Shown here piece after piece: positions 1-52,438 of a stretch of DNA of 64,000 nucleotides (position 1 is the stretch's first letter; each line of letters begins with the position of its first letter). A program made the translations under genes and the position numbers. Below the pieces are notes generated by a model. It made no database searches, had not been told where the DNA came from, and saw only the letters and a program-made list of their open reading frames with translations. This DNA is from Ulva prolifera (taxonomy: Eukaryota; Chlorophyta; Ulvophyceae; Ulvales; Ulvaceae), in the NCBI GenBank assembly GCA_023078555.1, contig CM041197.1:3862310-3926309 (forward strand). The letters run 5' to 3'.

Positions 1-3000
1 GATACAATACTTACGTGCAACGGTGAAGGAGGACCAAGCTGGGATCAAAGTTATTGCTGAAGATCAGACGATGATGCTGATGCCCACCTACTCGAATACA
101 ACCATTCACGACATTAACCCGGACTTTAAGTACGATGCGGACACGTGCGCTGGCACCGTGAAACACCCTGCTGCGATGGTGACATGGCTAGACGACATTT
201 ATGATGGCGTACACAAGCTATTGATGACGAATTTTCAAATAGATCTTGCCGCTGCCAGGGTAAGACTGCACTTGTGTTAACATGCTATGACATATGCTAC
301 GACTCACACCCGCTAGGGGTTTTCTCGCTGGCAGAGTAGAGACAATAATGTGTTACCGGATCGGTGTGCCATTTGCAGACCAAAGCGCTGCGCTATGGGA
401 TTGAGTGGCGATCAGACCTCAAAAACAGAAAAGTCGTGAATAAGGCACTGGTTGTCACTCAGCGAGCATGGTTGGACAAAAACTGCTGCCGTGTCATCAG
501 GTTCCTGGACACAAACAACTTCCTGACGAAGAAACAGAGAGAGGCTTTGACTGACGGCCTTAGCAAGGAACTAGCTGAAAAAGTAATGAACTGCATTCAG
601 AGAGGATGCCTGGTACGTCACATGTTGCAGCGTAACCTGACAGACCAATCTGCAAGCCGCGCCACCCACTAGGAGAATGGCGACACGGTGAAACGGATCC
701 GGGTGTCGTCCGCCAGATTCCGAAAGTCCGTTCACTCTCTGATACCTCTCCGACGTCATCGGAAGCGAGCAGTCGGATGGACCTTGGACTTTGGCACCGA
801 ATCATCCGCCGACCCAGGTATAATCTGCCGGACTGTGGACGTACCTTACCGCTGCAAGTGGCCTTCGCGTGTCTGCGCCGGCTGCCATGATACGAGGTCA
901 CTTCGGGCCCAGCCCGCGCCAGTGTTGGCACTTTTGTATTTCGTATGGCATACGCTGGGCAGCGAATACGGTATGCAAATACGTTTGCGGTGGGGGAATA
1001 CGTGTGTCAAAGTGCACTTGAGGCAGGAACATAGCAACGGGGGTGCGGGGGCGCAGCCCCCGCCGACCAGAGCATCTGTGCATGCACCAAGACAACAGCA
1101 GCTCATTCTGTTGCAACATCCTCGTCGCTGGCATCACTGCTTCCACCCTCGTCCTCCGAAGCAAATGCATCGAAGTACATCTGCTCATAGAGCTCACTAC
1201 GGTTGGCGTGCTCTGTCGCATACAGCGTACGCAGGTTCTGGAACACATAAACAAGCTTCTCAGTCTTGTCTACGCTCAGGCGGTTGCGCTTCTTGCTCAC
1301 AACATGCTCATACGCAGACCAGTTGCGCTCACAAGGCGACGCCGTTGGCCCCAGCGCAGTGATGCGCTCTGCAATTTCTGCAATGCCTTAATATCTACGT
1401 GAGATTTCCAGTCATCATCACGCCCTCGCTTTTGCGCTGCAGGGCCCGCGGCCGCGGGCCTGTTCCCCAAGAACCGCTGCATCGTGCCACAGTGAACAGC
1501 ACGCTGCACGTAAGCCGCAATGTCTCATGACCTCTGACAATACTACAGACACGACTAAACGTTACACGAGGCTCTGTGTGGCGGCATGCGCAGCGCAGCG
1601 GCCGCGGCAGGTGACTATTGAGCCTACGCGCTTGTCGACAAGCGTCTACAAGCGCAGTCTGTGTACAGCGCTAGCACTTAGGCGCCCACACGCTGGCCAA
1701 GTCCAACGTATGCCGTATTCCATACGATGTGGCCATAATACGCGTATTTCATACGTTTTTTTCGAGAATACGCGTATTTTGCCAACACGGGCCCCGCGCT
1801 GACAGTGGATCGAATGATACTATTGGTTACTTTATTACTACACGCGTATCTGGAAACGACTGGATTGGACACGGTGCAGGTATATGTGGACCCATACTCA
1901 TGGCAACTGACATCGACTTTGGGCAGGAGACGAAGCGGCAGGAAGCTGGAGGCAGGCTCACAATAGCGGTGACTTTCTGCATCGCCCAAGATAGCGTTGG
2001 TCCGTATTTCAGGCTCGGCAGCAGTCCATGTAGTGTCGGTCGTCGCCCTGTGAATGGTGGCCGGAAAAGCGTGCACATAGGTTCCTGGATGCGAATGCAT
2101 GCGGTGGTCCAGAGTGGCCATTCGGCGAATGGCCACTCTGGCGGAGTTACGTCATCATGCTCCAGGTAAGGCGTGCGCTCGTCCTCCTGGACGCGAATGC
2201 ATGTGATGGTCCAGAGTGGCCATTCGCCGAATGGCCACTCTGACGGGGTGACGTCATCGTGCTCAAGCAAATGTGTGAGCTCATCCCGATTAGTACCTGG
2301 CTGCGAGTGCATACGCTGATCCAGAGCGGCCATTCGCCGAATGGCCGCTCTGGCGGGATGACGTCATCGTGCTCCAGGTAACGAGTGAGCTCATCCCGAT
2401 TAGTACCTGGATGCGAGTGCATGCGCTGGTCCAGAGTGGCCATTCGCCGAATGGCCGCTCCAGCGCGGTTGATCTCACCCTGCCCTACCCGAGTGATCAG
2501 GCGCCTTTGCATTCGGGGCCCCCAACTTGGGTCGTGCTTCATGAAAGGGACAAACGGTGGATATTGTGTATGATACGGCTAACGTCCAGCGTTTGCATTT
2601 CACCTGGCGTTTCAGTGCACCGCGTCCCTGCTGGCGTCGTATTCCTTCGCCTAGCTGCGCTGCTCGTGACCAGTTACCGCATCCGGCAGTGACTAGAATA
2701 TTTGTTTGCATACAATGGATCCGCGCCATGCTGCAGCAGTTGCAGGGCTGTCAAGTACCCAGAATAGGCCTACTTCCGCGCGCAGCGGAGACTTACTCGT
2801 CGGTCGCATGCGTACTCAGAGAATCCCTGTAGTGGGTACTTTAATTTCAAGGGACGGGCGTTTTACTGATCGTGCCCGCGTCGGCCGCAACGACGGTCCA
2901 CTGTCCGGTCCTGGGGTGTGGGTGTGGTGGTCCCTGGGGGTGGTTCTGCGAGACGACGTGGTGGAGAGTCGGACGAGGGAGCTGGGTACGGCCAAGGAAG

Positions 3001-6000
3001 TGATTGTCACTACCTGTCTCGTGCTCTCCTCCTGGCTGCACGAGCAGGCAATGCTCGTGTCCTCGTGGGAGGGCAAAGGGAAGACCCCACATGGCTGCCT
3101 GGTGCCCCGGCGGTGGAAGCCCCTGTCGGGAAAGACAGAGGTGTGTGTGCCCGGTGTGCTGGTGGATCAGCTGAGCGCGATCTGCATTTACTGCCAGTCC
3201 ACTGACACGGGGCCCGGCTAACCTGTGGAGTGGGGCCAGGACTCAGTGCCGCCATTTGTGCAGGTTGAGATCACCGGCCACGTAAGTGAGTCTGGCCTCC
3301 CTAAGACCAGAATCACAGCGGAGAGAGATCCGGAGCTTCGCCAGCGGTTCGATCTTCCTCAGATCAACGTGGGGGGAAAGCGCAAAGGCCCGGACCCCCC
3401 GCGTCCAGACGGTGTGCTCTCTGCACGCATGTTGTTATGTAACGCAGTCACGTATGCTGTCCCCACATCGTGCGCGGCATGGCCTCCGCATTTGTGCACA
3501 AGTGACATGGGTGTTCTCGGTGCGGTGTATCATTGCTCCACCCCGCGACACGTCGTGTGGGCCTGGGCTTCCTTCATGTCTGGGCTGTCCCCTCATCGCA
3601 CCAAGTTGTGGACAGCCGGAAAGGCGTCTCCCGCGGTGGAGGGTCACGGGTCCTCCAGGCACAGGGAGAGACCCACATCCAACCTCCCAGAGGACCTGAA
3701 CCCGCTGGTGGCGTGGGTGCTGTATGAACACGCACACTACCTCCAGCTCGAGAGCATGGATGAAGATGAGCTCGAGCCGTGTCAGTCGATAGCACGGCAC
3801 ATTGGGGCCCGGTGCCACAGGATGTTGGCGAACACAAACGGGGTCCCTGCACAGCCGGTTTTCCAGCTGACCTCGGGCGTGCCGGTGTTAGCTGACATGC
3901 ACACCTCGCACTCGGACCTCATCAAAGCTTTCGTGCGCTCCTGTGACTTTCCATGACTCCGGCATGGACAGGGGGACTGCCTGTTGGTCTGTGTGCTGTC
4001 CTGTTCTACCAGGCATTTGTGCCTTATCGCATGCATGATCGTGGCCATGGTGCCCCGGGCCCTGTTTCTGTTGATCCCTCAAGTCTGGCCTGTCACCGGC
4101 CTGGGCTCGAGCTGTGTAGTCAGGTCTCTTTGCGTGCAGGATGTCAAGATCCTCGGTGAGTTTGTCGCCGCGCTCGACAACTTAGGACCCTGGGTATTGG
4201 CTTATGCGGCGGAGCACCCTCTGTTTGATTGTGCAGAGGTGCGAGGTGCCACTGACCTGTACATGCCATCGAGAGCTGCGTGTCTGTGCAGAGCTGTATA
4301 TGCTTTCTGTTGCCCGTCCCCCATTGTTGAGTATACCTGGATCTCGCCGTGCAGGGTGACCGAGTAGCCCGAGCTCTCCGTCCGGCGTGGAGTTCTGTGC
4401 AGGCATTCAACTCCCACATCATGTGGGCATGTGAAGGGCTGCAGCTGACCTCTACGGAACTGGCGTCCTTCGCCACGAATGGGATCCACCCGTTCATGCA
4501 TGCTTATCGGCGCCTCGTCGCCGTGGCTGTGACAGGGGACCCGGGGGCGCCTGTCCTGGAGAGGCGGCGTGTGCAGGTCATTCCAGCCTTGGAGCCCAGC
4601 CTCCTGGATCCCGCCTTTGCCGCCATCCTGGTGTGCACGGTGAATACCAGCAGTGCGCTACCAACCTTTTCTTCTCCATTGTTCAGGATTCAGTTGTTAC
4701 CTGCTGTAGCCCCCGATGTGGGGCAAATCTCAGCTTTGCAGACAGTGCTCTCGTCTGAACCACGCGGTGCATCCAGGTTTGGTGAAATCGGGGTATGGTC
4801 AGCCCGTCAAGAGGCTGGCCGACGACCTGATCCCCTTGTGCCCGCCCCACACGCTGTGGCACTGGGCGCTCAGGAGCTGGCGGTACCTTAGCGTGGGGCA
4901 GAAAGACACCGCGGGGAGCAGTTCCGGGAAATCAGCATCCCTGCCGGTTGTCCGCCTTAGGCCAGGATCATTCCCCGAGATCAAGGACTGGGATTATGCC
5001 GGCGCTGAAGAGCTTGCCAAGCTGTCCTTGGCCAAGGGGATGCAGAGCTCTCAGTGTTACATGTGCGAACCCCCGGTGATGGTCCCTAGTCCAGGAGTGT
5101 CTCTTGCAGAACATGCTCCCTGCATGTTCAGTCGTATGCGACTGAGTACTGGCCATCAGATCCTCCTGTTCTTTCACCAACGGGAGCATGTGCTGCTGTT
5201 AGTTGATCCAGAGTTGACATGCACGGGCCCTGGGACTACCAGCGTGTTCTGTTTGTTGTTGGCGACTCCGGTTAATGTTACAGGGCGGAGCTCAATAACA
5301 TTCCCGAAGGTATCCTCGCCACCCTGCCCGAGGACTTGCGGCAGCCGCCTGTCGTAGCACCCCAGCCTACCCCTGGGGCAGGGGGTGCCGGTGACACCCC
5401 TGCCTCTGGCCAGCGCAACCGTCGACGAACCGGGAAGCACGAGGTAGCTAAAGCACGTACCAAGTCGCTAATGCTGCGTAAGATGGGCCTGCCACCAGCC
5501 AAGAAGGGGGACACAGCCGCTGGCGGCACCGATACCGGCGGCAGCGACACTCAGGAATCCGGTGGGGACAGGGGCACCACCCGCCCTGCGTCCAAGGTGG
5601 CCACAGGGCCAGAGGTGCTCGGCCTGGGTTCCGCTGCGGGACCGGGGCAGGGGGGGGCAGTCTCCCAGCCGGGGGGGGGGGGGGGGGTGCGTGTGGCCGT
5701 CCCGCAGAGGCTGTGCCGGTCACGGCAGCGACAGGGGGGTTGAGCCTGACTGTGGGGCGGGGGGTGGTTTGGGGGGGAGCGCAGCGGCGGTGGCAGATTC
5801 GGCGGCGAAGGCGGGATTGAACCCCACTGTGAGGGTGGCAGCCACTGGGGGGGCTGCGGAGGCATTGCCAGTCACAGCGCTGAAGGCGGGACTGAGTCCC
5901 TTGGAGGGGAGGGCAGCGGGGGGGGGGGGACGCGGAGGCTACGGCAGGCTTGGCGGGGCAGGGCGGGGTTGAGCCCAACGGTGGCGGGGGAGGCGGGGGG

Positions 6001-6287
6001 GGGGGGGGGCGCGGAGGCTACGGCAGGCTTGGCGGGGCAGGGCGGGTTGAGCCCAACGGTGGCGGGGGAGGCGGGGGGGGGGGGGGGGGGGGGGGGGGCG
6101 CGGAGGCTACGGCAGGCTTGGCGGGGCAGGGCGGGTTAGAGCCCAACGGTGGCGGGGGAGGCGGGGGGGGGGGGGGGGGGGGGGGGGGGCGGGGAGGCAG
6201 GCTTGGTCGGGGCAGGCGGGTGAGCGGGCGCGGAGGCTAAGGCAGGCTTGGCGGGGCAGGGCGGGTTGAGCCCAACGGTGGCGGGGG

Positions 6288-6318
<31 letters not shown>

Positions 6319-7072
6319 CTGGGGGGGCCGGGCTGCGGAAGCTATGGCAGACATGGCGGCGCGTGGCGGGTTGAACCCACCAGTGGGGGGGGAAGTTGTG
6401 GGGGATTTTGCGGGGATCCCCTTGCAGGGTCAGGACGCTACAGGTCGTCCAGAAGTGGGCCCCTTTGGCCTGCCTGTCCCCGTGCCGGCGGGCGGACCGG
6501 AACCCGTCCCTACAGGGTTTATGCAACCGGACAGTGCGGAAGGACGTGGGGATCTGGTGTACGATCCGGTAGCAGACGCCATGTTTGCAGATGCTCTGGC
6601 GGAGGCAGTGCTGTATCCGGAAGACCACTCCTCAGATGATTTCGGATCCATCAGCTTGGATGACGATTCAGATCGTTCTGACCCAGCGGACCCCCGCTGC
6701 GCTGTGCACGAAGTGGCGACAGAGGACCTTGAGACTAGGCCGTCCCAAATAATCTACCTGCACGATAGTTCGGGGTCAGTTCGTCTAACCGTGGACGAGT
6801 CCTTCGAGGAGCAGAAGACTACCCTGCGCATGGCCGCCACTTTCGTATCTCCTCCGGGTGGTTCGGTCGGGCGTGCTGCTCAACTGCGGCTCATTGTCGT
6901 GGCAGTTGACCTGATGTTGGTAAGCACCGCCGGCATGGATTTGACTAAAGCGGAGCGCTTGGTCCGCATGAAGTCGATCATATCGGCGTACGGGCTCCAA
7001 CCAGATGAAGATCTGTATCCGAAGTTGTGTCACTGATTCAGACGGTGCGCTCCTCCAAGCAAATTACCCCCG

Positions 7073-7104
<32 letters not shown>

Positions 7105-8604
7105 TGGCCAGTCTGTCGCATGGCCGTGGTGGGCCAATTCTCTTCTCCCTCTCCCAAGGCAGACGTACAGAACCCAGGGATGTTGACCGTGCAGGGACGC
7201 AATTCTACAGAGGGCAGCGAAGCCGTCCCAGCCCCGGATCCTGTGGTGAATACTGGTTGATGAGCAAAGTCCCTGGGGGATGGGGGCCTGTGGTGAATAC
7301 TGGTTGATGAGCTAAGTCCCTGGGGGATGGGGGTGCCGGTAGCACAGCTGCGTGGGAGTACACTTTAATGCGGCGTGCAGTGTCCGCTAAGCCATCAAGC
7401 GTAGCACTTCCCGGCAGTATCAGCATAGTCACTTTGTTAATGCAGATGCTACGGGAATACGTCACAATTCTTCCCAGTTCGGCGGTAATACAATGACGGT
7501 GGGCCACATCACTGTCGGTAATACAATGACGGTGGGCCACATCACTGTACAGTGATGCAACCCCGTCTACTAGTGCCATACGCTCTGCTATAATGCAGGG
7601 GTTGACCGTTGTACCCCTCTAATCCTACAGCGCCGACCTGGTGTAGCCGTTGAGGATTGATAGGATTTTTACACGAAATAACGATTAGAATACTGAGTCG
7701 AACTCCGTACGCAAACTGTGGCGTCTTGTCTTCTGCAGACAATGTGTTCAGAACAGTTTCAGCTGTGCCTGCCTGGCAGCAGCCCGCAGCGCTGCAGATA
7801 CACCGAGGTTCAGTGCAGCTGCAGCGAAATGGCATCACCTGGCCTGTGGCGTCGGAATGTCCCGGATGCCACCCTTCAGTGACTCATACACGCGTCTTCA
7901 GCGAAATAGCCATCAGCTTGTTATACTGCTGACTCAGGGTAGCCACTACCGGGCTCGCCTTCTCCAGGAAGGTGTCAAAGCGCGCCTGCAGGTACCACTC
8001 CCTGCAGATCCATCAGCTTCATCAGGCAAAGGTCCCCACCGGGCCTCCAAGGGGGTGCCAGAGGATAGATGGTGACAATGCTGCGGTGGACATGGCAGGT
8101 GCATCGAGTCGCCCGCACCTCAGCCCCTCTTCGGAAAGGTCGTTGAATGGCGGTGTCTGGAGGTGGCGGTCCCACCTAGCGTCGGCTAGCATCTTGGTGC
8201 CGTCCTCGACTGACAAGTGTCCCAACTTGTCGCCCCCTCTCCCGCCTCGGTGCCACTCTTGAATGAGGGCTCGAGTGAGGACGATACGGTACAGCACCGC
8301 GTGCTGCACCTTGACGCGGTTGGTGAGTAACAGGACCCTTCGAGTCGCCTCGTAACCGTGGATGTCACTGCTGAACACAGTTCCCCCCTCCTGTCGCATG
8401 CGGTGGATGACGTCGCACACAGCGTCGGCCAGCATGCATGTGAAAATCCCGCAGTCGTGGCCGTTTGGTTGCTGCGGGGTTCCTCCAACCTGGACACCAC
8501 TGGGGGACGGTTATAATGCTAATGTTACGTCAACAGATCAGGTCCACCGCAGACCTTGGACGCGGGGTGGTTCCAAAGCAGTACGCTGTCCGGTTTCGGG
8601 CAGA

Positions 8605-8635
<31 letters not shown>

Positions 8636-9089
8636 AGTCTGGTGGGCGCAATCAGAGGGTGCTGTTGTGTCAACGATTGCAGTCCATTTGGTAATATGCG
8701 CGACTGTCAAGGGTCAGAGGACAGCATCTGTGTGGATGGTATCGCAGGAGAACAGTGGGACGTGGGCATTGTACCTTCGCCAACTTCAGGGTTATCCTAG
8801 CGGTGGATTCGGTCGGCCGGGTGGCCAGTCGGACGTTGTGTCGGCGGCCCACTGCTTTTACCCGAGGCCGGGTGGTAGATGGGGGGTCTTCCGGGGGGGA
8901 GGGGGCCCGGCCCTCGGGGTAGTCAAGCGCCATGCACAGAGCCTCACTCAAGACGTCCCTGGCCCGTTCAGCGGTCCCTGAGTCGGCGCTTATCAGGCTG
9001 TCAAAGAACGACACAGTCGGCGCCTTATTCTGCTTCATACGCCCTGCATTATGGCTGAAACGTCAGTAGTGGCGTTCAGTGGGCGTCTT

Positions 9090-9126
<37 letters not shown>

Positions 9127-12100
9127 TATGACAGTCCCTCGCACAGCAGGTTACCTCATCACATTGTCAGCTGCTGCGGGAGAGCGTACATGGGTGCCAG
9201 ATGACAGCCAACATCCAGTGGCTGTTCCGGGGAACAGGGACTAAGACGCATTCTTGCTCAAAGGTGTGAGCTCTGAACATCCACCGCCCCATAAATCTGG
9301 TGCGTCCGCTTGACCAGTCTGCGTCCGCATCCCCAGTACATATCCCAGCCATATTCTGGCTAGGCGTTGCAATGACGCCCTGCCCGGCCAGCGCGACACA
9401 CCTACTCAAGGCGTAGTCAACGTGTGCACTCTCGGCCCATGCGGTGGGCCAGCCTCTCGCGAGGGTGTCCAGACCGACTGTAACAGACACCCGAGCATCC
9501 CCAAAATGCCCTAGCTGCAAGGTCACACCGCCCACCACATTCGGGAACCTCTCCCCATCCTCGTCGCCGGAGGACACTACGGTCGGTTCAGCTGCCTCCT
9601 GCGTTGTGTCGGCAGCGGATGAACCGGCGTCTTTGGAAGTGGACCCCCACTGCTGCCTCAGCTTGCCCGGAGGCTTTGCAGGGAGGTTTGTGACCCAATC
9701 CGGTGGCACCACCGGAGGGTGTGCCAGGAGGGATGCTGACAGCCGCGGGACGTCCGGGGCAGGAGGAAGTGCGGACAGGATAGGCCCCTCTTGACCGGGT
9801 GCTGGACAAGCAGGCTCCGGAGAGGACCGGAGCGGGGGGGGGGCCTCGCCGATGGAGCAGATGGCTGCACCGACTGGGGCAGGTTGGGGCCCCTCGCTAG
9901 GGCCATCCTCAGGGGTGACGGATGGAACCTGATTGGCATCGTCCAGCCGTGGCGGCGGCAGACAGCCACTGGTCCGCGATGGCGACGGCGGCCTCACAGG
10001 GCCAACCGGCTGTGGGGACTGCGGGGGCAACGCCACAGGGGGAACCCTTACTGCAGCCGGCCCCTCTGGCGGCGGATGATCCCGGCTAAGGATCTGCGCT
10101 ACGGCCGCAGCCCCCCCCCGTGCGGCACCCCGTGCCCCCCTGCGCAACCTAATTCGTGCGGGCTGCTGCAGATTGGTGCCCCGAACTGCGCGCCCTCTAC
10201 CCGGTGCCCTTGCCCCTTCTGCCTCGCCAACCCGCTGCTGCTGCCGCAGATTGGTGTGTCTGCCACGCCCCTGCCTTCGGTCACCCGGGCCTATACTGGT
10301 GGCTATGGACTCTGTTGGCGGCGGGGCAGCGACTGCACCCGGTCCTGGGGCTGTGGCGGTGCCGGTGACGCCCCCAAGAGCGGCGTCGGGTCCCCCCCGG
10401 TCTTCACCGTCCGACCCGCCCGCCCCACCCCTCTCTAGCTGTAACGCCAACATGGGCGCCTGCAGAGGCCCCACCTGAACCTCGGAGCGAGGCCACTTAG
10501 GATTTGGAGTCCGTGCTAAGTTTGCCTCGCACTGTATCCACTCGCAGATCAAGTCTGTCCCGCCCGTGTGCCGCACACGTTCGAGCAGGCCGCCAGCGTC
10601 TTCTATGATGCCCGCGCCGACCTGGCAAGACCGGTACAGCACGATCTCCTCTGGCTTGCACGGGGCCTTAGTATGGACCGCGCGCTCGAATGCGATCATC
10701 CGGAGGTCGTGCCAGAGGGATTTCATCTTCTGCTCTACCCGCGCGGCGTGGTCGGCGGTTTGTGAAGCCTCTACACTCTCCTTCATCGCCCGGATCGAGT
10801 CCAGGTACATTTCTAACCCTTCCCCCCCGGCCTCCACTATAGAGCCCACCATGGTAACATCTACAGTCGTTAATAGGTAGGCGTTGGCCATGAAGTCTAT
10901 CGGGAACCCGGGCTTCCGGGTACAGATCGTTAGTGCTGGGATCGGCTGGCCAGGCGTCCAGTTACCCTTCAGGGCGGTTTCCAGGAACCGCTTGAAAGAC
11001 GAGTCACACGAACGGTTACTACGAATTGTCGCAAGGTAGGCCCGCAAGTCCCTGTCCGTTATCATACTGGCACACATCGTGTGGACTGTACACCGCACAG
11101 AAACGTTCTATCCGCGCTATCGCGACGCAGTCTTCCTACATCAACTGCATCAGACCTTGCACCTACCATTAATCTGTCCGCTGGACCTGCGACGTGCACT
11201 AACAGACGACACCGACGCTTGAAGAGGGAGCGAAAGTGGCCACGAGCGCACGCCGCAGGACGTGGGTTGTATGGCTCCAACGAGGGTGGCGCCTGTAGAC
11301 ACGCACTGGCGGGGACTCTGGTCCCCCCCGTGGCCCTCTGGCAAGTATGGACAATGCAAAGTGGGCACAACTGGGATTGCAGTCAACTGGGATTGCTGAC
11401 GAAGGCATATGCGGCGGTGGTCTTGTACAATTACACAGTTCGGCCAGAAGCCTTGTTCGCAGTGGCCCAATACTGCACATTTTGTGCACCCCTCCGGACT
11501 GGAACTAACTGGCATGGAACTGCGTCCAAGTCTACGACGTATCTGCCGGCATATGCCCGAGACCCCCTGTTTGCACCCGCCACACCGAAAAACTCAGGGG
11601 GGCGTTTCAACACGGGATCAGGGGCGCGGGCTCCCGGGGTGGCTGGCAAGGTGCAATTATACAGATCAGCAACCCCCAGGTACAATGGGTTTGGTTTCGC
11701 AACACATGACACGCAACACACGCCATCCGGGGCTGCAGACACGCCCTCGTGAAATACTGCAGTTCCCCGACGAAATACGTCACTGTCCCGCCACCCCCGT
11801 CCCCGTCCCCCCCAATGAGGTACCTCAAGAGGCACCACTTGTTGTCTTTCTTCCCTTGCGTACCCTGTTGCGCGCAGCTGAACATGTCTGCAACGCGGGA
11901 TTGCATCTGGTGGAACTTCATCAGTGTCACTGTGCCCTCACGGCGAGCCTCATCAACAGTGCCATTCACCTTCAGGCCCAGAGCTCGGTGGATGGCCGCG
12001 CGACGTGCATATCCAACCCCCAGGCGACAGTGAGTTGGCCAGCCCTCATCCTGTAGGGAATCCTGATGGAAGAGGAGGTACGGCAGCCCTGTCAGCTCAT

Positions 12101-15100
12101 CTCCCACGAAGTCAAGGGGGAGGACCTCTGCAGTCTCAGACTGGGCAGGAGCCCTGCCCACCCCGACGACCCTGCCGGAGATCCGGTCGCTGTCAACTGA
12201 TTGATCCCCGTCAGCGGATCTTCCATTGCGAGTTCGTGCCCGCCGGCGTTTCTCCGTCGCTATGGCATCCGACAGTGAGGTCATGGCAGCAGGCAGTGAA
12301 GCTGCATCATGTAGCAGCCGCATACATGTGCGGCGCAGCAGTTCATCGCTCACGTATACTTGTTCAGGGCAACGAGTCGATCGATATTTGATCAGCCTCT
12401 TCAAGAGCTGGACCATCCGCTCGATCCAGAATTCAAGACTGAAGAAGGATGCACCGCAGCACCTCACCTGATCCGGGAGGTGACAAGCTGCCAGATGCAG
12501 CTTGTACGTGCTGAGAGCGGCGCCCTCAAACGTCTCCTCCGCCAGCTTGGCGTACTGCAGCATCAATCGCTGTGCTTCCGTGATTCGGGCCGGTGTGTGC
12601 TGACCCTCTTCATATCTGAGAAAGTAGAGGGCCCCTGCTCGCAGGAGCCCCCACGACTGCTCAAACACACTGCGTATGCATTTCTCGGAGGCTTTCCACG
12701 GGAGATCGTGCATGAGGTACAGCGAGAATGTCTCGGTGAAGGCCAGCCAGTCTTCCATGAGCCAGCGACTGCGGTGCCTACGCAAACAGTCACCCTGACT
12801 CAGACGGGCTGCTTCAACAGGAGTGCACATGGTTCCTGCAGCTGTGTCCAAGTAACAGTCCGACAAATGGCGCAGCCTCGGATGCGAGCAGGGTGTGCAG
12901 GCGATGGGACTGCGCACTTGGTGATGTCGGTGTACACCTTCTTGAAAAGAGAGGTCTGCATGATGTGGGGCGCTCTGGCAGCTATCGCCTTGACGACATC
13001 CTCTGGCAGTCGGAGCAGGGCCCGGAGGCCAGTCAATGGCGCCTTCTTGGACTTCTTCCGGCCCAGGGGAGGGAGCCACTGGTTCCAGAAGTCCATGAGC
13101 ACACCGAGCAGAAACACGTGCGCCACTCCGAGCCGGAAGAAACGGCAGGGACTGCAACGCCACAGCGTATTTCATAATCAACTCCAGACTCAAGGGCGAG
13201 GCAGGCAGCAGCAGGCTGGGGGTGCTCGTACTTGAAGTTGGAGAGGAGACTGAACAGCGGAGAACGTTTCACCCCCAGTAGCTTGTACTCATCTTTGGCG
13301 AGCTTGGCCCTGGACTTCGGTGTCTTCCGGTCGCAATAGCGTTTCAAGGTTGGTGCGTGGACCTGCACTACCACAGGCCTGGCCAGGGTTACCACAAGAA
13401 AAGAGCCGTATCACCAACGACGCTTGTTCGGTGACAGAGGGGTTGGCAAGATGAGTTGCGGTGCACAGAGGGGGGGCAGGGGAGTAGGCGGCATGTGCAC
13501 AGTTTGCATTCTATGACACTGTAGATGGAATTGCACCTGGGCAGCGATCTTGTCGCCCTTTCGGCCCCTGGCCAGGATCTCTGCCGCCGAGTACTTCAAG
13601 CGGTTGTCAGACTCCCAGGACGAGGGCTGCACATGCCGGGGCTCAGACCACGCGGTCCGCGGAGGGTTGCCACCAGTGTCCGGTTGTACACTCCCAGGCA
13701 CCATCCGGGGGTTTGCAGCCGAAGACGCTGCTTCTTCCTCCGGGGTGAGTGATTTCCCTTTCAGAGGCCCGTCGGCATAGCAGGGCACGGGCTGGTGCAG
13801 AGGGTGATGGTGTCCCATCCACCTGTGTGGCATGCATGATAGCAGTTATAAGCAGGACAGGTACGTGAGACAGCACTAGCAGGAAAGAGATTACAAACGT
13901 AAGTGAACACCCCGGACCTGACAGTGTTGGAGGGGTAATCCCACACGCCGTTTTGGGCACATCTGAAACATGCCCTCTTCGCTGTATGGCCGATGCTGTT
14001 GGTAAGTTTCTCCAGCCATGGGATATCCCCCTCCACACAGCACATCACCGGCCACACGTGCAGTACCTCGCCCCCTGGCAGTGTGATTTCGAGTGCCTCA
14101 CCCCCAGCTCCTGCACTCCAGCCATCACGTGGTGCGGGGGCCAGACGCTACGTGATCGGGAACTGTACACATCACCCGGCAGTGACCAAGAAGACAAGGT
14201 GAGTGCGCGCCCGGATCATGCTTCTTGAAGAACGCCATCACGGACTCCAGAATGCTGGCCATGCATGTTGGTTCGGATGGCCCCTCCACCACTCCAAGGG
14301 GAATCCAGGCCACATTGGTACTTGAGAGATGGGGCGGCAGGTCAAGCAGGCGGATCCCCCAGATGGTGACACCGTGCTGCTTGTTGACATACAGCTGGGC
14401 CCCGTCCCCCCCTGCAGGAAAAGCGACTGTCGGGACACGAGGCAGAGGGTCTCAATTCGCGGAGTTGCATAGGCGTGCCGTTTCGGTGTGCCTGATAGCC
14501 ACCTGCTCAGATGAGGAGGTGGAGCGCACCGAGGCTGAACAGCAGGACAAGCTCCCTATGCTTTGGCTTCAGGATTTTGCCCCCACACGCCAGGTTGAGG
14601 GCCTTTCCAGCCGGGGAGTTGAGGAAGCTGCTTTTGTCTTTGACAGCTGTTGCCCTGGCTTCCCGTACGCTCGTCAGCAGCCCCGGCTGCAGGAGGAGGT
14701 CTTTCAGCGAGGCTTCTTCGCCAAAGAAGAAAGCTGAGCGCACTGGGACACCCTTCCCTGTGAGATCGACATCGAATCGCTGTTGACAACAACCAGGGGT
14801 TCCGCAGGTGTCCGCCAAATGCTGGTGATGGTCACCCGGATCAAGTGGGGGGAACAAGGTCCAGCATTGGGGACAAACGTGGCGCGTCACAGAGGAAACA
14901 GGCGGGACACCCAACACCGCCTTGACGAGGTGAAAGGAGGGGGGGAAAAAGTTGCCATCGGGTAGCAGGAGGTAATGTATGAACCTGCACCACGTATCGA
15001 CGACCACGTCTTGTATGCGAAAGAGGCTCTTCAACTGGGCAATCCACATGCACACCGTGAGGACGGTGAGGGCGCTGCCAGTGTATATGTGTTTCATGCG

Positions 15101-18100
15101 TTGGTCATGCCACCAGGCGCCCGTGCCCTTACGGGCCCCTGTGGTGGGGAGCGGGCCGTCGTCATCCGCCTCCTGCATGGGCAACGATGCGGCCAGTCCC
15201 ACGGAGGAGTACGAGCGGATTCACAGCATTGCATGTAATGGAAGATGAGGACACACCTCGGATTCGTCTGAACTGTAGTCCGTCTCTGAGGAGAAGGCAA
15301 TGGAGTCTGCGTTTGAGGTGTATGAGTCGGCGTCTGAAAATTGTGCGGGGCCCTCGGCATAGTCACTTTCGGACGGTGGGGGCAGCTGTATCACAATCCC
15401 AACACATCAGAGTTGCTTTGGGCGAGCAGGCAGGATACAGCTGAGGGACAGACGCGCTGACACCCATGGCCATCGTGATCACGAGCCGCTGTCAGGCCGA
15501 ACTGCATCATGATCAGGCAAACCGGGACTTAGCACGGTCAACTACCGAAGGTACGCACGTCGAAGAGGTCGTCGGAGTGGGCAGGCTCATCGGGGGGACC
15601 CCCTATGTCTGGAGGTGATGGGGATCTCCCAGAGGGACCGGCCCCGTCGTGTCTGCCGCTGCGGTCATCATCGGCAGTAGCGGAGGTCGGGCCAGCGGCT
15701 GGCCTCGAGTCTGGGCCCGCGACGTCGTGTCCACCAGCGGCTCTCCGCGATGTGGCTGCTGCACTCAGTCGACGGCTGCAAGGACCGTGATGGTTTTGGG
15801 CGGTGTTGTGCCTCTGAAACTTCTCACCACAGGCTAGACACTGGTATTTAAACGGTTCCTTCCCCGTCGGCTCGGGAGGGGTCAGGCGCTTACAGTTCGC
15901 TTTGGCAACCAATTCGTTCACCTCCGCCCTCTTCAGTCTATTCGCCGAACCGGCCATGGTAGCCAGCAGTACTTAAGCATTCTTGTGACGAGGTTCAACA
16001 ATAGCGCGGCCTCTGGTGTTTGTCGTCCCTATGATGGCATTACGTCCCACGAAGACCTCCCTGTCGCATCCCATGTTCGCCCTGACGCCACAATCCCTGG
16101 CGAGGCGCCGGGGTATCGAGGCAGCCAAACCTTTGAAGGCGGACCGCGCGACGACGCTACATCGGCATACCATTCAAAGCACGGAGCAGCAAAGCATGTG
16201 CGAATGACGCGATATGTTAGCTGTGCCTACGATACGACCATCCACAGTACCGGCCATAGACGTGTGTTAATTCCGCTTTGTCTAATCATCCACCATGTCC
16301 AACCTGCAGTTCACGTTCCTCCGCGCGGCGCCCGTCGTCATCGAGAAAGAAGTTGTAGATGACGCAGACAACGGAGCAGGGATGCTTGACGTGCTGGTCA
16401 GCAACGTGTGGAGCAGAGGTGCCGGCGTCGACGGGTTGACTTTGACGTCAACCGTCGACAAAGACAGCTCCGTTGATATCGACAGTGTCGAGAAACTGAT
16501 GACGTGCGTAAAGTACTTCTTCAGGAAAGGCACAATCGCTGGACTGCTGAAGCCGCCCGTGCTGGTGAAGGCGCTGGGCAAGGGCAGAGGGAGCGTGGGA
16601 CAAGCGTCGGCAGCCGTCGGCACTGCACACTCCACAGCTACGGCCTTGACTGCGGACCCCGAAGCTGCCAGGCGGTGGGAAACGATGAAGGATGCGGTGA
16701 TGATGTGGACGGAAGGGATGAGATCCAAGGTGGCGGGAATGGCCGATGCCCACACGCGAGGCAAGAAGGTGCAGGCACTAGTGAACCTGGCCCTCCCAGA
16801 CGACGAGAAGGTGTGGGTCGGGAGTATTCTAACGAAAACACAGGCGGACGCACTCGGCAAAGCTGCACATGGGGTACGGCTGCTGTCTCCGACTAACAAC
16901 GTGATTGCAAACTGGGGTCCACTACCACCCCGTCAGGGCCACGGGATCGCATGCCACCGACTGTCAGTGTAGTGTCTTGGCACGTCAGAGTCGCCATTCG
17001 CGGTCAGTATGCAGTGACGGATATCGTGTACAGGTCGGCAGAACAGGTGAAGCGTACGAAGCTGCTACTAATATCAATCATGCTTTCTACCGCCAGCACG
17101 CCCATTTGAACGCCGTGACCAAAGAGTGTGCCTCTGCTGATGCTCGGGTTATGCCGTACCTGTTGCCGTGCCCAACGGTGGCGGAGAAGGGAAGCACACA
17201 GTATCCGCCCAAACGGAGGTGACCCGATGTGCAGTAAGTTTTCGAGACGGGCGTGGGACCATAACACGGGCCTGCGGAGGAATCCCAGCGCCCGCGAGCA
17301 GAGGAAGCTGCTCGCGGCAATGAATGTGTTCCAGAACACCAAGGCATGTCCTCCACCTTGGTCAGAGTTGGAGTGGCCATTCGGCGAATGGCCACCCCAG
17401 CGCGAATGCATTGTGTTGCACTGCACGCGGCCGGAGTGGCCATTCGCCGAATGGCCACTCCAGCGCGTCATGCATTGTCTTGCACTGCACGCGCCCGGAG
17501 TGGCCATTCGGCGAATGGCCACTCCAGCGCGTCATGCATTGTGTTGCACTGCACGCGCCCGGAGTGGCCATTCGGCGAATGGCCACTCCAGCGCGTCATG
17601 CATTGTGTTGCACTGCACGCGCCCGGAGTGGCCATTCGCCGAATGGCCACTCCAGCGCGTCATGCATTGTGTTGCACTGCACGCGCCCGGAGTGGCCATT
17701 CGCCGAATGGCCACTCCAGCGCGGCGCGGCCTGCTTGAATCCGCACTTGCATGGCCACTGACCTGCCAATCGGCGACTGTGTTCCAACCAATGTGGTTCG
17801 TGCGCAGTTCACCGTGAGAGGAGACCGCTTCCCTATCGATAGCGAACCCATGAAAACCCCCGAGGCCTGGGCTATGGAGGACGGTGAGTATGTGTGCGAA
17901 GGAATCGCCAAGGTTGCTGCGGCCCGGCGCGCCCTCGAAGGGACCGTTGACTCTCCCGTCCAACGGGGCAAGAGACAAAGGAAGACCGAGAAGGTACAAT
18001 CTCACCACACGCTGTACTGCCTGCCTGAGGTTGGCCATCAAGTGGTACCGGGATTGTACGGGCGCCTGTGTGAGCGGCATGTGCCATCATTCGAGGCAGC

Positions 18101-20902: not shown

Positions 20903-21320
20903 CACTAGGAGAATGGTGACGTGGTGGTGAGGAACGTGCGAGGACGGCTCGCGGAAGAGGGGTGGATGCGTGGCGGAGCCGTCGGAACGGCGAAAGGATT
21001 GTTGGCGGAGCGTCCGGAAGGCAGCCCGGAGCGTGGGCGGAAGTTCCGCGAGCGTTCCGACCGGGTGGTTTCCAAGTGCACTCCACGTGGGTGTTCCGCC
21101 GGAACGTTTCCGGAGTGGTGCCGGAACGCGCGAAGGATCCGCAATGCATCCAGAGGACTACTTGAGGAAGAATGCTTAAAATTTCGGAATGATTTCGGAT
21201 CCGGGGACGTTCCGGCAGAGCCTTGCGGAAGCCGTCCAGAAGCCTGGACGAACAAGCTGGTTCATGAGGGGTTATTACTTGGTTACTCTCTGTTCGATCG
21301 TGCCGGAGGCAGAGTACGTA
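20903..21320. repeat. Left terminal region of CACTA-2 with TTCCG/CGGAA cluster
   Basis: After the terminus, about 400 bp contain more than a dozen TTCCG, TCCGG or CGGAA motifs in both orientations (for example AAGTTCCGCGAGCGTTCCG, GGAACGTTTCCGGAG, TTTCGGAATGATTTCGGATC). The motif is more sharply defined here than at the ends of CACTA-1. Positions 21321-21875 contain no supported feature. Confidence 0.6.
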
Positions 21321-21875
21321 CGTGGTGAGGTCAGCGAGGCCTCCTTTACATGTGTGCCACGTGCATGTTGCCGTTGATACGGATGCGACCCGGTATCGGT
21401 GTTTGTTCTCTCCCATTCACTCTATTTTAACAGGTGCACCAAGTTTTCAACGAGTTTATGATGATATGCGTACGCAAAACTGCCTTTCCCGCAAGACCGT
21501 ATGTCATGTGCGCACCATTCGCGAGTCTCGTTCGACCGCAAAACTATATTCATGATGTATACAAGCAGCATGTACACCGTGGTTCCGAAACAAGACAGCT
21601 TTGTTGATGTGTTCACACGAGTTTGTAGGCAGGCGGTCATGCATAGGCAATCATAAACTAGTATTGACATTGCTTACATTGAGATCTCTTCACCTTGTGA
21701 CCTCTGCATGTCCATACGGAACGACATTACTACTATAACAAGTCATGCCACGTCTAACATGTCATATACCCCACTCATACACTCGGTCACGACCGCCTGT
21801 GTTCAGGGACAGTATCTTCTCAGCCCCCGTTGGTGTCCAACTAATAGACAGACATCTTCAACCTGAGTCTTCACC

Positions 21876-29576: not shown

Positions 29577-29646
29577 ACAGGTCATCCCCCAGATGGCGGG
29601 ATGGGACCACCATGCGGAATGCATGTGCCCAGTCAGCGCCATCGCG

Positions 29647-33200: not shown

Positions 33201-34254
33201 GCTGATCAGGCCAAGCCCTCTCATGGCGCCACGGGTGACGGGGGGGAACAGTCAGCGGCTGGTGCTGGGGGTGCTGGTGGGGCTGACCCCGCCACCACCG
33301 CGGCCGGGGGTGCCGCTGCCGGCGCTGCTGATCAGGCCAAGCCCTCTCTGTGCGCCACGGGTGACGGGGGGGAACAGTCAGCGGCTGGTGCTGGGGGTGC
33401 TGGTGGGGATGACCCCGCCACCGCGGCCGGGGGTGCCGCTGCCGGCGCTGCTGATCAGGCGGAGCCCTCTCTGTGCGCCACGGGTGACGGGAGTGGGCCA
33501 TCGCTGTCCTCTTCTGAGGGGGGGTGGGATGGTGGGAGTGTGGAATGGGGGGTCGCCTCGAGCCTGTATGGACGCAACGCCGCTAGGTGGCCTGATGGGG
33601 GAACCCTCCTGGATACTCTTGCCCGAGTTTCTGGGATTGCCAGCCCCCCCCAAGACCCCTCCACCGGGGTCCCAGACGGGGCGGGGGGGGGGCCTGCAAG
33701 CGGTGGTTTGCCCTTCAACTCACATGACCCTGCTCTCGGCCCGCAATATAACCCTGCATCCGAGCAGGTGCTTCCTTGCTTCGACCCCTCCACCGCTCTG
33801 GTTCCGTCGGTCGGGGTGACTGTTAACACGCAGGATAACAGTCGGCAAATTGTCATAACCATAGACGACGAGCTGCCTCCGTCCGGGAACACCACCTGCA
33901 GCAGGGAGACTCTACTGCATTGTGCCGCCGCCACCTGGCGCATCATGACGCGTTGCAACCAGCGGCTCCAGTCGCCCGGTGATGACCAGAGGATCATGCT
34001 CATGATGGTCATCTCTGGGCACGGCCTGATCCCTGATCCTGCCGCTATGGACGAGGTTATCCTACTAAGTCAGGAGGTGTGTCGCATGCTGGCTCCGGGG
34101 CCTGAATCACGGTGCTTTGTATGTAGTGTAACAACTTGTAGTGCAGTGTAACAACTTGGCGCCTGTGCAGACTCCCCAGGACGACGTGGGGGACTTACTG
34201 GAGACGCTAGACCTACTGGCCGCACCTGGAGATCAAGCTGTCGAAGATTCGTAG
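30230..34254 (+). CDS. CACTA-2 gene A, interrupted by a hAT insertion
   Basis: Start MSAVGGEGAVACREGD at 30230. The N-terminal domain (AIGTLISRSGHFTNVGRVGPKG, LGGWLREQERMLVPAWEG) matches gene A of CACTA-1 and -3. A middle block (31047-31470: FVEYAVTGPRSILWAW, MNPLCTLFL) is also shared. Instead of Gly-rich G runs, this copy has a 41-residue tandem repeat (SAAGAGGAGGDDPATAAGG and following), six to seven copies before the hAT element and two to three after it. The conserved C-terminal domain (NSRQIVITIDDE, RIMLMMVISGHGL) ends near 34125. A last exon, 34177-34254, encodes TPQDDVGDLLETLDLLAAPG and a stop. The hAT element introduces a stop at about 32430, so the full protein is not made unless that segment is spliced out. 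Confidence 0.6.
32318..33188 (-). mobile_element. hAT-family deletion derivative, copy 2 (exact 8 bp TSD)
   Basis: 871 bp with 11 bp inverted ends CAGTGTTGGCA and TGCCAACACTG, flanked by identical GCTGCCGG at 32310-32317 and 33189-33196. That 8 bp duplication and CAG-type ends are diagnostic of hAT elements. It differs from copy 1 by only a few bases over its length, so the two moved recently or from one source. Element plus duplication add 879 bp, a multiple of three, but the inserted sequence holds stops in the gene A frame. Confidence 0.93.
32501..32784 (-). pseudogene. hAT transposase C-terminal remnant, copy 2
   Basis: Same fragment as in copy 1: TALGPTASPCERNLSAYEHV followed by KKRNRLS and LVYVFQNLR. 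The normally conserved Trp after CERN is Leu here (TGG to TTG). No catalytic part of the transposase is present. Confidence 0.75.
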
Positions 34255-34564
34255 ATTCCATGCTGAGGCAGGGGTCTGGGGTTGGGGTGGCCTGTCGTGC
34301 AGCGTGTACGACAGTTGGGGGATACGTGGTGCCATTCAGCAGTGCTGGTGCCACCACGCCACATGGTTCTAGGCAAGTACGGTATTGTGTAGTGTCGGAT
34401 CTGGCTACGGATTCATCAAGTCCCCTGTACCCCGTGTCCGCTTAGCATTACACACTACAGCTTATGCACTCGAGCTTCCACACGATATGTTACAACCGCT
34501 GCCGCCCTGACAAGAACCTACGCCTGACCGCAGCCATGCTTTTATAAAAACGCCTGTATACCTG
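34255..34564. other. Tail-to-tail spacer between genes A and B (CACTA-2)
   Basis: 310 bp between the two stop codons. No gene, repeat or structured element is apparent. Confidence 0.4.
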
Positions 34565-37156
34565 CTATGTCTTTCGATTGAGCGGCGGCAGTGGCGTCTT
34601 GAACAGATCTTTGTACTGAGCCCCGAACACTCCATCCGGCTTCTGAACACTGCGGAGTATGTCGGGCCACAATGTCGTCTGGAATAGGTGCCTGCAACAT
34701 TGAGTGATTCAGCTACGGAAGGAGGTCTCACTTGCCTACCTGGTGAAATGCAAAGTTTGTCAGGGTCTATACCTCACTTCTTCTTCTGACTGGTCTGGGC
34801 AGATAGCATCATCCAGGTTGATGTCCCATCTGGCATCGGTCAGGATTCTCCGAGCTTCCGCCACCCCAACGTCACCCGCGTCGTCGCCTGCACGCCCTCT
34901 CTTCTCCCATTCTTGAATCACGGATTGTCCGATGAGGATCCGATACAGGACCACCTCCTCTGCCTTCAGCGCCTTCAGTCTACCAACGACCAACCGGTCA
35001 ACGCTGCTGCCATCTCTGAGCTGAAGTGGCGTCTCGTCCTTGCGTTTGTTGTCCACTTGTTTGATTACGTCACACACAGTCTCTGCATACAGGCACGTGA
35101 AAACGCCGCAGTCGTACGTGTTCCGCTGCTGTGGGACGTCTTTCACCTGTACACCCACCTTGTGTATGGGAGCTGAGCCTACGTCTGCCCAGGTGTTGTA
35201 TGTCAAACCGGGATGCAACCCCTCCTACAGTGTCAGGCGGCGACTGCCGAGTAGGACGCACCATGCGTAGGTTTAGTGTTTGCTTCGGCATCAATGCTGG
35301 CACATTCCCCTGTTTGGCGCCCCGCTTTGGCAGAACCCTGGGCCGACCACCCGACTGAACCTTGGGCAAGGGGGGGAGGGCGGGGGCGCCGTCAAGGCAC
35401 TGACACAGAGCCACGCTCATCACCTCATTGATGGCGGTCGGTGCGGTTCCCGAGGCGCTCGGCAGGGAGTCATACCAGCTCATTGTAGGGCTCTTTCCTG
35501 ACAGCAAGAGTCCTGCGAATCGGCATGTGATGTATCAGCCCCCCGTTGCGTTGTGGATGGTGGGGGTAGCACCAAGGACATAATGCAGTCAGGGTCATTG
35601 GAGCCGCACCTGGCGAGTACACCACTGCAAGTCCCCAGTGCTTCCCGGTGGGGACCGGGATGAGGATACACCTCGCTGCTAGTGCTTTCGCCTTCTTCAG
35701 CCACGCGATGAGGTGTTGGAGCATCGCGCGGGCCTCTGCGTCGCTGCTGGGGTCCCGACTGGCCAGGCCCTTCAGGTGGTCGGACGGGACGGCAATGACC
35801 CCCCCTCCGGCCAAGACTGCAGCCTTGACTACCCCATACTGGACTGAGGTGCTGCTGAACCACTCCGCCACCCAGAAATCCCTGAAGTGCAACACAGAGA
35901 CGGTGATGGAGACCGTCGCGTCCTCAAATTTGCCGAGCTGCACCCCTACACCCTTGATAAATGAGGATCCTGAACAACCCTCAATGTCGTCCGGTCCGAA
36001 CACCTGGCCGCGGAGGCGTACCCCTGTGGGGTCGTCGTGCGAAGGTTCGGCTGCCAGCCGCACCAGCGGGCGCGTCTGAGCCCTCTCCAGGGCTTGGACT
36101 AGAGGCTGCCTCCGAACATCGCTACCCGGAGGCAGCAAGCACGCTGGAGACAGCGTCCCTGGCTGGACTGCCGAGGGGCCTGCAGCGGCCTCCCCACCGT
36201 CTGGGGTGTCCACCTCCATAGGCGTGGCACATCCGGCATCCTGGCGCGACGGCCCCAGAGGTGGCTCTGGGGGGACCACTGCAGCCGCAGCTTGTGCTGC
36301 GCCGTGGGCCCGCCGGCGGGGGACGGCGGGCTGCATCAGTGGACGCCCGATTGCAGCCCCCCCCGCCACTGTGGGGCCGGCGCTGCCTCCTCGTTGTGCC
36401 CCCACCGCTCCCTCTTTCCGTCCAGCAGCGCCTGGATCACGTGTCCGGGTCTCACGTGACCCGGGAATACCGCCTGTGCGAACTCGCAAGGTGGACTCGT
36501 GGACAACACTTTGCCCTGAGGATTCCGCCTGCTGGATCGGCGCCCTGACGGGGGCCGGCGATTGGGCTGCGCCGACCACCCCTCCACGTGAGTCCGATGG
36601 CTGCCCTCCCATGCTCGCCAGATGGGCCGGCACATCTGGGGCCGAGAGAGGGTGCTCAATGACTGGCTCTCTCGGCCACATCGGGGTGGTCTGCGGCTCG
36701 CTATCCTGCAGCCTTCCCCACCATGCCATAATCGGGGCCCCTCCGACTGTCATCTGGATTCGCAGGAGCATCCCCCCCATGTCCTCGTCGAACCCCTGGG
36801 TCGTGGCTATGGACCGGTACAGCTGGATCTCCGGTGGCCCGCATGGGGCTCCGGTCTGAACCGCCCGCTCAAAAGCGCCTTCACGAAGCACTACCCATAA
36901 CATTTTGAGGTGGATGGTCGCAGCGCTGTACTCAGTCGTCGCCTCCATGTACTCCGTCGTCAGCATTCGTCGCATTGCCTCGAAGGCTGCCATCATCCGG
37001 GGCCCCGCTGCTTCGTCGCCCGCTAATATGCTATCTATTGTGGCTACATCGCAAGCTGTTAACAGCCACCCGCATTCCATCAAGTCGACTGGAAAACCGA
37101 GTGGTCGGTACTGGACCAGTCGCGGTATACTGCTATCTCCATATGCCTCTTTTACC
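34565..37156 (-). CDS. CACTA-2 gene B: Ulp1/C48-type cysteine protease
   Basis: Exon boundaries are approximate. The first visible exon (37156 down to about 35490) begins after a CAG acceptor with KEAYGDSSIPRLVQYRPLG, matching the first-domain region of CACTA-1 gene B; the initial ~30 residues were not found. It continues through a Pro/Ala-rich linker to LIPVPTGKHWGLAVVYSPG (catalytic His). The next exon has KSPTMSWYDSLPSA (Asp). The next has VKDVPQQRNTYDCGVFTCLY (Gln and Cys). The last exon (about 34670-34565) encodes LWPDILRSVQKPDGVFGAQY and ends FKTPLPPLNRKT. The full H-D-Q-C set is present, so the protease may be active. Loss of the N-terminal exon suggests a rearrangement breakpoint near 37.16 kb. 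Confidence 0.72.
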
Positions 37157-37158
37157 CT

Positions 37159-51712: not shown

Positions 51713-52288
51713 CACTAGGGGAATGGCGACACTGTGAAACGGATCCGGGTGTCGTCCACCAGATTCCGAAAGTCCGTTTACTCTCTGTTACCTCTCCGAT
51801 GTCATCAGAGGCAAGGTGACGGAATGACCTTTGACTTTGGCCGCGAACTATCCGCTGACCCAGGTATAATCTGCCGGACTGTGAACGTACCTTTCCGCTG
51901 CAAGTGGCCTTCGCATGTCTGCACCGGCTGCCATGACACGAGGTCACTTCGGCCCAAGCCCTCGCTAATAGTGGATCGAATGATACTTTTGGTTACTTTA
52001 TTACTATACACGCGTATCTGGAAACAACTGCACCGGACACGGTGCAATTGCAGGTATACGTGGACCCATAACCAGGCCTGCAGCTGCCATCGACTTTGGG
52101 CAGGAGACGTTGCGGCAGGAAGTAGGAGGCAGGCTCACAATAGACGGTGACTTTCTGCATCGACCAAGATGGCTTTGGTCTGAGTTTCAGGCTCGGCAGC
52201 TGTCAATGTGGTGTTGGTCGTCGCCCTGTGAATGGTGGCCGGAAGAGCGTCCACCTTGGTTCCTGGACGCGAATGCATGCGCTGGTCC

Positions 52289-52438
52289 AGAGTGGCCATT
52301 CGGCGAATGGCCACTTTGGCGGAGTGACGTCATCGTGCTCCAGGTAACGCGTGAGCTCATCTTCATTGGTTCTTGGACTCGAATGCATGCGCTGGTCCAG
52401 AGTGGCCATTCGCCGAATGGCCACTCTGGCGGAGTGAC
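52289..52438. promoter_or_regulatory. Palindrome array upstream of gene A (CACTA-3)
   Basis: Two copies (about 52289-52317 and 52409-52438) of the GAGTGGCCATTCG half-site palindrome lie in ~120 bp units. Each is followed by GGAGTGACGTCATCGTGCTC with the CRE-like TGACGTCA. CACTA-1 has four units at the same place. The second palindrome ends about 245 bp before the gene A start. Confidence 0.75.

Follow-up and report, generated by a model that had tools for sequence, protein, structure and literature searches.

To our knowledge, the control that transposons exert over their own genes is understood in detail for few elements. The VANDALs of Arabidopsis are Mutator-like transposons and do not belong to the CACTA superfamily. 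As far as the available parts of the sources go, VANDAL21 and VANDAL6 carry tandem, family-specific motifs in their non-coding parts, including the region upstream of VANA21, and the VANC protein that binds them is encoded by the element, with related VANDAL families differing in motif (PMC5735166, PMC10398659). TnpA of Spm is a parallel for element-encoded control, again going by parts of the sources (PMC2613891, PMC10398659).

An earlier note on the DNA discussed here described five palindrome arrays in CACTA elements and took them for promoter-linked operators that accompany genes A and D in every copy. We lean, with slightly better than even confidence, towards a related reading, in which the arrays would be sites linked to promoters, at which a dimeric DNA-binding protein encoded by the element, most likely the gene A product, sets the accessory genes together.

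CACTA Elements and Their Gene Layout

The window, meaning the whole stretch of 64,000 nucleotides (C2:3862310-3926309 of the 88.9-Mb assembly used for all genome searches), includes three CACTA elements, all of them large:

667..19653, element 1, complete transposon of the CACTA type, family 1, 18,987 bp, TIR at both ends
20903..37131, element 2, family 2a, left TIR at 20903, right end missing
51713..64000, element 3, family 1, TIR at 51713, extends beyond the window

The TIR of element 1 begins CACTAGGAGAATGG; it reads CACTAGGAGAATGGCGACACGGTGA at 667 and CACTAGAAGAATGGCGACACGGTGA (reverse) where it ends at 19653. It thus starts with CACTA, as members of the superfamily do, and the element is flanked by a 3-bp target duplication, ACC on both sides (664-666 and 19654-19656); two smaller elements described below have AGT and TAT in this role. 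No right TIR of element 2 was found in the window by a pattern scan allowing up to 3 mismatches. Element 3 matches element 1 in blocks that are 66-89% identical. The genes of elements 1 and 2 are as follows:

2715..7036, + strand, gene D of element 1, multi-exon, approximate end, ORF 2706-3221 containing the N-terminal exon
7900..11081, - strand, gene C of element 1, predicted Ulp1-type protease, ends approximate, ORF 9167-11098
11607..15960, - strand, Tnp of element 1, ends approximate, placed by inverted matches to Tnp of element 2
16295..16972, + strand, gene B of element 1, 225-aa ORF
17751..18840, + strand, gene A of element 1, ATG at 17751, end approximate
22010..22945, - strand, gene A of element 2, ATG at 22945, end approximate
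24300..24902, - strand, gene B of element 2, approximate, assigned by position, ORF 24317-24934
25176..29576, + strand, Tnp of element 2, one exon of which has 138 match rows genome-wide
30230..34252, + strand, gene D of element 2, end approximate, insertion inside at 32315-33201
35470..37083, - strand, gene C of element 2, 5' truncated, matches beginning at query residue 45

From left to right, the order is therefore D forward, C and Tnp reverse, B and A forward in element 1, and A and B reverse, Tnp and D forward, C reverse in element 2. Gene D of element 1 has 95 matches in the genome. The two Tnp genes share about 66-70% identity and also have matches elsewhere in the genome, where a third Tnp family is seen in about 30 match rows at 34-40% identity. 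Tnp starts with a zinc-finger-like segment and matches DUF4218 under the curated Pfam cut-off (E 0.0019 and 0.007); the exon pieces tried gave no Transposase_21 match.

Several further features lie within or between the elements. An insertion of about 886 bp is shared by element 1 (917-1801) and element 2 (32315-33201), the two copies being 99% identical; its ends read CAGTGTTGGC.../...GCCAACACTG, and the element 2 copy, which disrupts gene D, has an apparent 8-bp duplication, GCTGCCGG. It resembles a non-autonomous hAT-type element. Gene D of element 2 also contains 123-bp (41-codon) tandem repeats, about 95-97% alike, at 31509-32318 and 33189-33491. Runs of G or C, 25-45 bases long, are found in the elements at 6064-6327, 7067-7104, 8607-8635, 9092-9124, 57293-57334, 58434-58458, 60305-60343 and 60970-60998. 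Between elements 2 and 3, a series of plus-strand ORFs at 39737-48183, perhaps another transposon, starts with a C2H2-like zinc finger resembling the Tnp start; none of the ORFs tried exceeded a Pfam cut-off. Two inverted copies of a repeat of about 143 nt, matching at 94% and lying 1.1 kb apart (48344-48486 and 49620-49760), are possibly the ends of a small element.

Palindrome Arrays Within the Window

Each array is a tandem series of a 27-bp near-identical palindrome, P1 (GAGTGGCCATTCGSCGAATGGCCACTC) in elements 1 and 3 and P2 (GAATGGTTGGTGGSCCACCAACCATTC) in element 2:

2111..2460, + strand, P1 array before gene D of element 1, 4 palindromes, 254 bp to the ATG at 2715
17371..17717, + strand, P1 array before gene A of element 1, 6 palindromes, period 64, 34 bp to the ATG (17716 to 17751)
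23067..23704, - strand, P2 array before gene A of element 2, 11 palindromes, period about 61, 121 bp to the ATG
29647..29935, + strand, P2 array following the Tnp stop and preceding gene D in element 2, 4 full and 1 partial palindrome, period 67
52289..52438, + strand, P1 array before gene D of element 3, 2 palindromes, 257 bp to the ATG (52426 to 52684)

The distance to the ATG at 30230 in the fourth array is 355 bp from the last full monomer (29874) and 294 bp from the last partial one (29935). Tandem Repeats Finder detected all but the fifth array (2084-2460, 17370-17723, 23067-23704 and 29611-29933); the fifth, with its two monomers at 52290-52316 and 52400-52426, was recovered by repeat search and pattern scan. 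The existence of all five, and their place ahead of gene A or D, thus agree with what had been described. A scan of the window with up to 5 mismatches returned 12 P1 and 15 P2 monomers, every one of them inside the five arrays, and no extra copy appeared in the 64-kb window at up to 7 mismatches. At this same level, there was no palindrome in the intergenic stretches between Tnp and B of elements 1 and 2 or upstream of gene C of element 1. The earlier statement that no array is near Tnp, B or C holds for the window scan, but not for the genome, where family 2 has an array before C.

In element 1 the A start codon follows the last palindrome by just 34 bp, so that transcripts may begin within or ahead of the array, and this would allow the palindromes to be RNA-level elements, that is, hairpins in a transcribed 5' leader that control translation or feed small-RNA production. 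We think this very improbable, given that the D arrays of the window are at least 254 bp from the ATG, that the window has no Rfam match at gathering score, and that conserved pairing beyond the conserved core was not seen.

Array Positions Across the Genome

The genome has 38 matches to chlorophyll-binding genes, which marks its source as photosynthetic, perhaps a green alga. At up to 2 mismatches, it contains 338 forward and 324 reverse matches to P1 and 901 and 900 to P2; since a palindrome can match both strands, this corresponds to roughly 340 P1 and 900 P2 sites. Reversed control patterns had no match in the genome on either strand, and a chance origin was rejected.

Array positions were compared, in four listings sampled in contig order, with the starts of A, D and C obtained from protein searches. 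Among the matches listed, all 25 P1 arrays of the first listing precede A and all 45 D-type P1 arrays precede D, so that C is needed to explain none of these 70 P1 arrays. Among the matches of the second listing, 9 arrays lie before A (6), C (2) and D (1), and among those of the fourth, 36 lie before C (24) and D (12). With the three arrays common to the second and fourth listings counted once, 112 distinct arrays were placed, and among the matches listed every one of these 112 stands ahead of A (31), D (57) or C (24), at a distance of 32-676 bp. A second sample consisted of loci fetched for the 30 best matches per gene of element 1 together with hand-picked distant ones, the window copies (L010, L036 and L039) included. 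A palindrome (at up to 5 mismatches) was present at 35/35 D loci and 35/36 A loci. At the single A locus without an array (C3:2069679), 1.2 kb of upstream sequence fails to match the window, and this copy therefore looks interrupted there. These counts are not independent events, as most copies are recent.

The earlier claim that arrays are linked to A and D starts in every copy is in this way borne out for A and D themselves, and has to be widened to a third gene: full-length copies with arrays unlinked to A or D do occur, in that family 2 has arrays at C, while among the listed arrays none lies away from A, D and C.

Gene C Arrays and the D-C Inversion

In family 2, one copy (L083) has five palindromes before gene C, ending about 234 bp upstream of the ATG, and another (L110) has four. 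The alignment of element 2 with L083, which retains both the array and the C start, stops at window position 37131. The absence of a C array from element 2 is thus attributable to truncation of its C copy near this position, with the promoter, the array and the right TIR lost. Gene C of element 1 has no array upstream (up to 7 mismatches).

Element 2 had been thought to carry an inversion of A and B, through which the array stayed with gene A. This is not what comparison of the subfamilies indicates, as the relative arrangement of A, B and Tnp is unchanged between elements 1 and 2 and the flipped part is the D-C block. Subfamily 2d has the order of element 1 (e.g., on C2, D at 6945683 +, C at 6952822 -, Tnp at 6956989 - and A at 6960524 +), and 2a has D-C turned around (e.g., on C2, A at 6986478 -, Tnp at 6989190 +, D at 6993478 + and C at 7000264 -). 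The breakpoints fall at arrays, and the arrays probably acted as the inverted repeats for the flip. Under recombination between arrays, it is to be expected that both genes keep an array afterwards, and the inversion was dropped as proof that arrays travel with genes: between 2a and 2d, the array that comes next after the Tnp stop agrees at 91-95%, even though the next gene is D in the former and C in the latter. Copying between arrays must also have occurred, since the terminal C-array of 2a is 93-95% identical to the 2d C-array as opposed to 81-88% (short stretches) to the 2d D-array.

A-Only Elements

Two smaller elements that contain A without the other genes could be followed end to end, from two loci each (L086 with L081, and L087 with L082), and measure about 6.0 and 8.4 kb by coordinates; a third stretch (L080) is a composite whose outer flanks are mismatched. 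This A-only type, which accounts for 25 match rows in the genome search with gene A, carries exon 1 of gene A with 10-23 palindromes upstream (10, 11 and 23 in three). The opposite end has a D start that runs into a stop, preceded by two complete palindromes whose arms are 11 bp long. The A-only ORF was examined for purifying selection, and none was seen: the 23 copies have 30 distinct non-synonymous changes (179 sites) against 3 synonymous ones (52 sites).

Element Ends

The ends of the elements have short repeats of their own:

667..866, no strand, TCCG/CGGA-rich subterminal repeats, D end of element 1, 7 motifs in the outermost 100 bp and 3 in the next
19254..19653, no strand, TCCG/CGGA-rich subterminal repeats, A end of element 1, 4, 4, 9 and 4 per 100 bp inwards
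20903..21202, no strand, TCCG/CGGA-rich subterminal repeats, A end of element 2, 3, 9 and 7 per 100 bp

At all seven ends read, which come from two related families, the first 200 bp have 3-9 TCCG/CGGA motifs per 100 bp against an average of 0.9; the density stays high to 300-400 bp at the three A ends, and both ends of one element are rich in the motif in element 1 and in an A-only element. These repeats fit ordinary CACTA subterminal repeats. With the ends so occupied, the palindrome arrays appear as a second system, and they are not restricted to element ends, for full family 2 elements have one internal array, which precedes C in subfamily 2d and D in 2a. On both counts, the view that the arrays are unlike classical CACTA subterminal repeats stands.

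These observations bear on the possibility that the arrays are transposition signals, in effect palindromic subterminal repeats at which a TnpA-like protein joins the ends, so that nearness to genes is a by-product of gene position. In element 1 and the A-only elements the palindromes lie about 0.7-1.9 kb from both ends, and the two complete A-only elements (those with AGT and TAT flanks) retain two palindromes where D is dead. Soybean Tgmt*, as far as the part of the source available goes, has subterminal repeats that can form 2 + 12 palindromes at its borders (PMC2613891). In addition, the TIR has GAATGGC in common with P1, and with P2 it shares GAATGGT; a 7-bp match arises in 1.5% and 7.5% of shuffled TIRs, respectively, and with both palindromes at once in 0.06%, the two families being related and not independent. 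One protein may recognize both TIR and palindromes. We nevertheless regard transposition signals as a rather unlikely explanation, in view of the internal array, of the separate short repeats at the 7/7 ends, and of gene A sitting between its array and the element end. Moreover, the dead D end of the A-only elements has two palindromes compared with five in the 2d D-array.

Palindrome Cores and Spacers

Families 1 and 2 have different palindromes, at A and at D alike, and within a family the A- and D-arrays have little in common beyond the palindrome core and the motif ATGCAT. Their periods differ (64 vs 102-110 bp in family 1, about 61 vs 67 bp in family 2), and when the sequence ahead of A is aligned locally with that ahead of D, the best hits span 27-29 bp in element 2, as against 37-44 bp in element 1, and are in effect the palindrome. 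Between elements 1 and 2, neither the A nor the D upstream regions gave an alignment at E 1e-3. The D- and C-arrays of family 2 do share spacers and downstream flank, and they are not mutually independent, being related by duplication.

ATGCAT, which we take to resemble the plant RY motif, is present in 328 of 388 spacers (summed over classes), from 8 of 14 in the A-arrays of 2b up to all; the D-arrays of 1c consist of single monomers and hence have no spacer to count. At the dead D ends of A-only elements it occurs in 0 of 4 spacers. Its density is 13.5 per kb within the arrays of the window versus 0.42 outside, and the longer ATGCATG is common to the example spacers of four classes, A and D of element 1 and A and D of element 2, whereas 300 shuffles gave no shared 7-mer. 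Compensatory change between palindrome arms was not above permutation (344 and 180 of 2000 as low or lower), and strict co-variation of palindrome sub-variants within an element was dropped, since in a 2d copy the A- and D-arrays have mostly GGTCGG and the C-array GGTTGG.

Alternatively, the arrays could be passive and functionless minisatellites, expanded by slippage near promoters, with palindromes perfected by template switching. Array length does vary (1-7 monomers per D locus and 2-15 per A locus, in addition to the 10, 11 and 23 of the A-only elements), compensatory arm changes are not in excess and the A-only ORFs evolve unconstrained. Passive repeats would not so readily place the same core, in each of two families, at both A and D within spacers that are unrelated, nor leave 0 of the 112 placed arrays, among the matches listed, away from A, D and C, and we judge this origin unlikely.

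Gene Products and Selection

The predicted product of gene C is an Ulp1-type protease, its C48 catalytic domain being found in element 1 in the piece with DCGIFTC, which contains the catalytic Cys (Peptidase_C48, PF02902, E 5.3e-05, 23.6 bits vs a cut-off of 20.7); the piece with HW matches the same family under the cut-off (E 0.17, 12.2 bits). The pieces of A, B and D tried had no Pfam match above cut-off, A and D had no PDB sequence match up to E 10, and none of the pieces tried, from A, B, C and D, matched the VANC domains DUF1985 and DUF287 in Pfam. The gene A translation of element 1 can be described as a conserved N-terminal exon, an acidic middle and charged, helix-like last exons. Fold predictions were of low confidence, with a mean pLDDT of 51.5 for A and 36.9 for D.

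By the counting method, dN/dS of A exon 1 is 0.42 between 2a and 2d and 0.50 between 2a and A-only, and it is 0.96 between 1a and 1b and 0.89 between 2d and A-only. For D, the values are 0.20 between 2a and 2d and 0.44 between 1c and element 3.

A Proposed Role for the Arrays

In the reading that we favor, each 27-bp palindrome would provide two half-sites for a dimer made by the transposon. The binder would most likely be the gene A product, with its short conserved N-terminal exon and coiled-coil-like end, and its loading on the clustered sites before A, D and, in family 2, C would set their joint activity. The effect would probably be to keep promoters open against host silencing, or else autorepression, and transposition itself would use the TIR and the TCCG/CGGA-rich subterminal repeats. 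The sequences themselves show the arrays, their positions, the family-specific cores and the separate end repeats; a binding protein, its identity as A, whether it activates or represses, and a role against silencing are what we infer.

In favor of promoter sites are the positions (112/112 among the matches listed), the family-specific cores, the internal arrays, the separate ends, ATGCAT and the lower of the dN/dS values. Against them stand the lack of a Pfam or PDB match for A, the poor folds of A and D, the A values of 0.96 and 0.89, and the persistence of A-only arrays though the A-only ORF is without purifying selection; likewise the absent arm covariation, the sub-variant mismatch in 2d, the missing ATGCAT at dead D ends, the lack of an array at C of element 1, and counts made non-independent by recent copies. 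What remains of the operator proposal is its core, carried by the position at gene starts, the internal array and the separate end repeats, and the inversion lends it no independent support.

A more elaborate version would see here an independent CACTA anti-silencing system, with an A dimer on the arrays, protease C stripping SUMO from silencing factors there, the palindrome as a family-specific key, and A-only elements (up to 23 palindromes) competing for the A of full elements. As a whole, we hold this to be improbable.

Comparison With Known Systems

A search of titles and abstract openings, with subscription literature mostly outside its range, found no description of promoter-linked palindrome arrays in CACTA elements. 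Maize En/Spm, with its TnpA, also has a CACTA TIR, a 3-bp duplication and short subterminal repeats; it differs in that here long near-perfect palindromes lie before separate genes, one of them internally, and apart from the subterminal repeats. The soybean element Tgmt*, a CACTA of 20.5 kb, is similar in size, in its CACTA TIR and in having many potential palindromes in its subterminal repeats; those repeats, in the part of the source available, lie within 159 and 732 bp of the ends (PMC2613891), in contrast to arrays at gene starts and other repeats at the ends here. The grapevine CACTA-ULP is a CACTA element with an ULP1-like region, like gene C here, and the available portion of its text uses neither "subterminal" nor "tandem" and leaves arrays undescribed (PMC2528002).

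The VANDAL motifs are 8-9 bp long and also found in introns, and "palindrom" is absent from the part of the text available (PMC5735166), as opposed to the 27-bp palindromes here. In the best reading, the arrays would follow the logic of maize TnpA or Arabidopsis VANC. With many recent copies, two families that differ in palindrome and a natural inversion in one genome, the system offers a ready test of co-change between protein and site. If the anti-silencing reading is true, these elements would represent a second origin of VANC-like logic, this time in CACTA elements.
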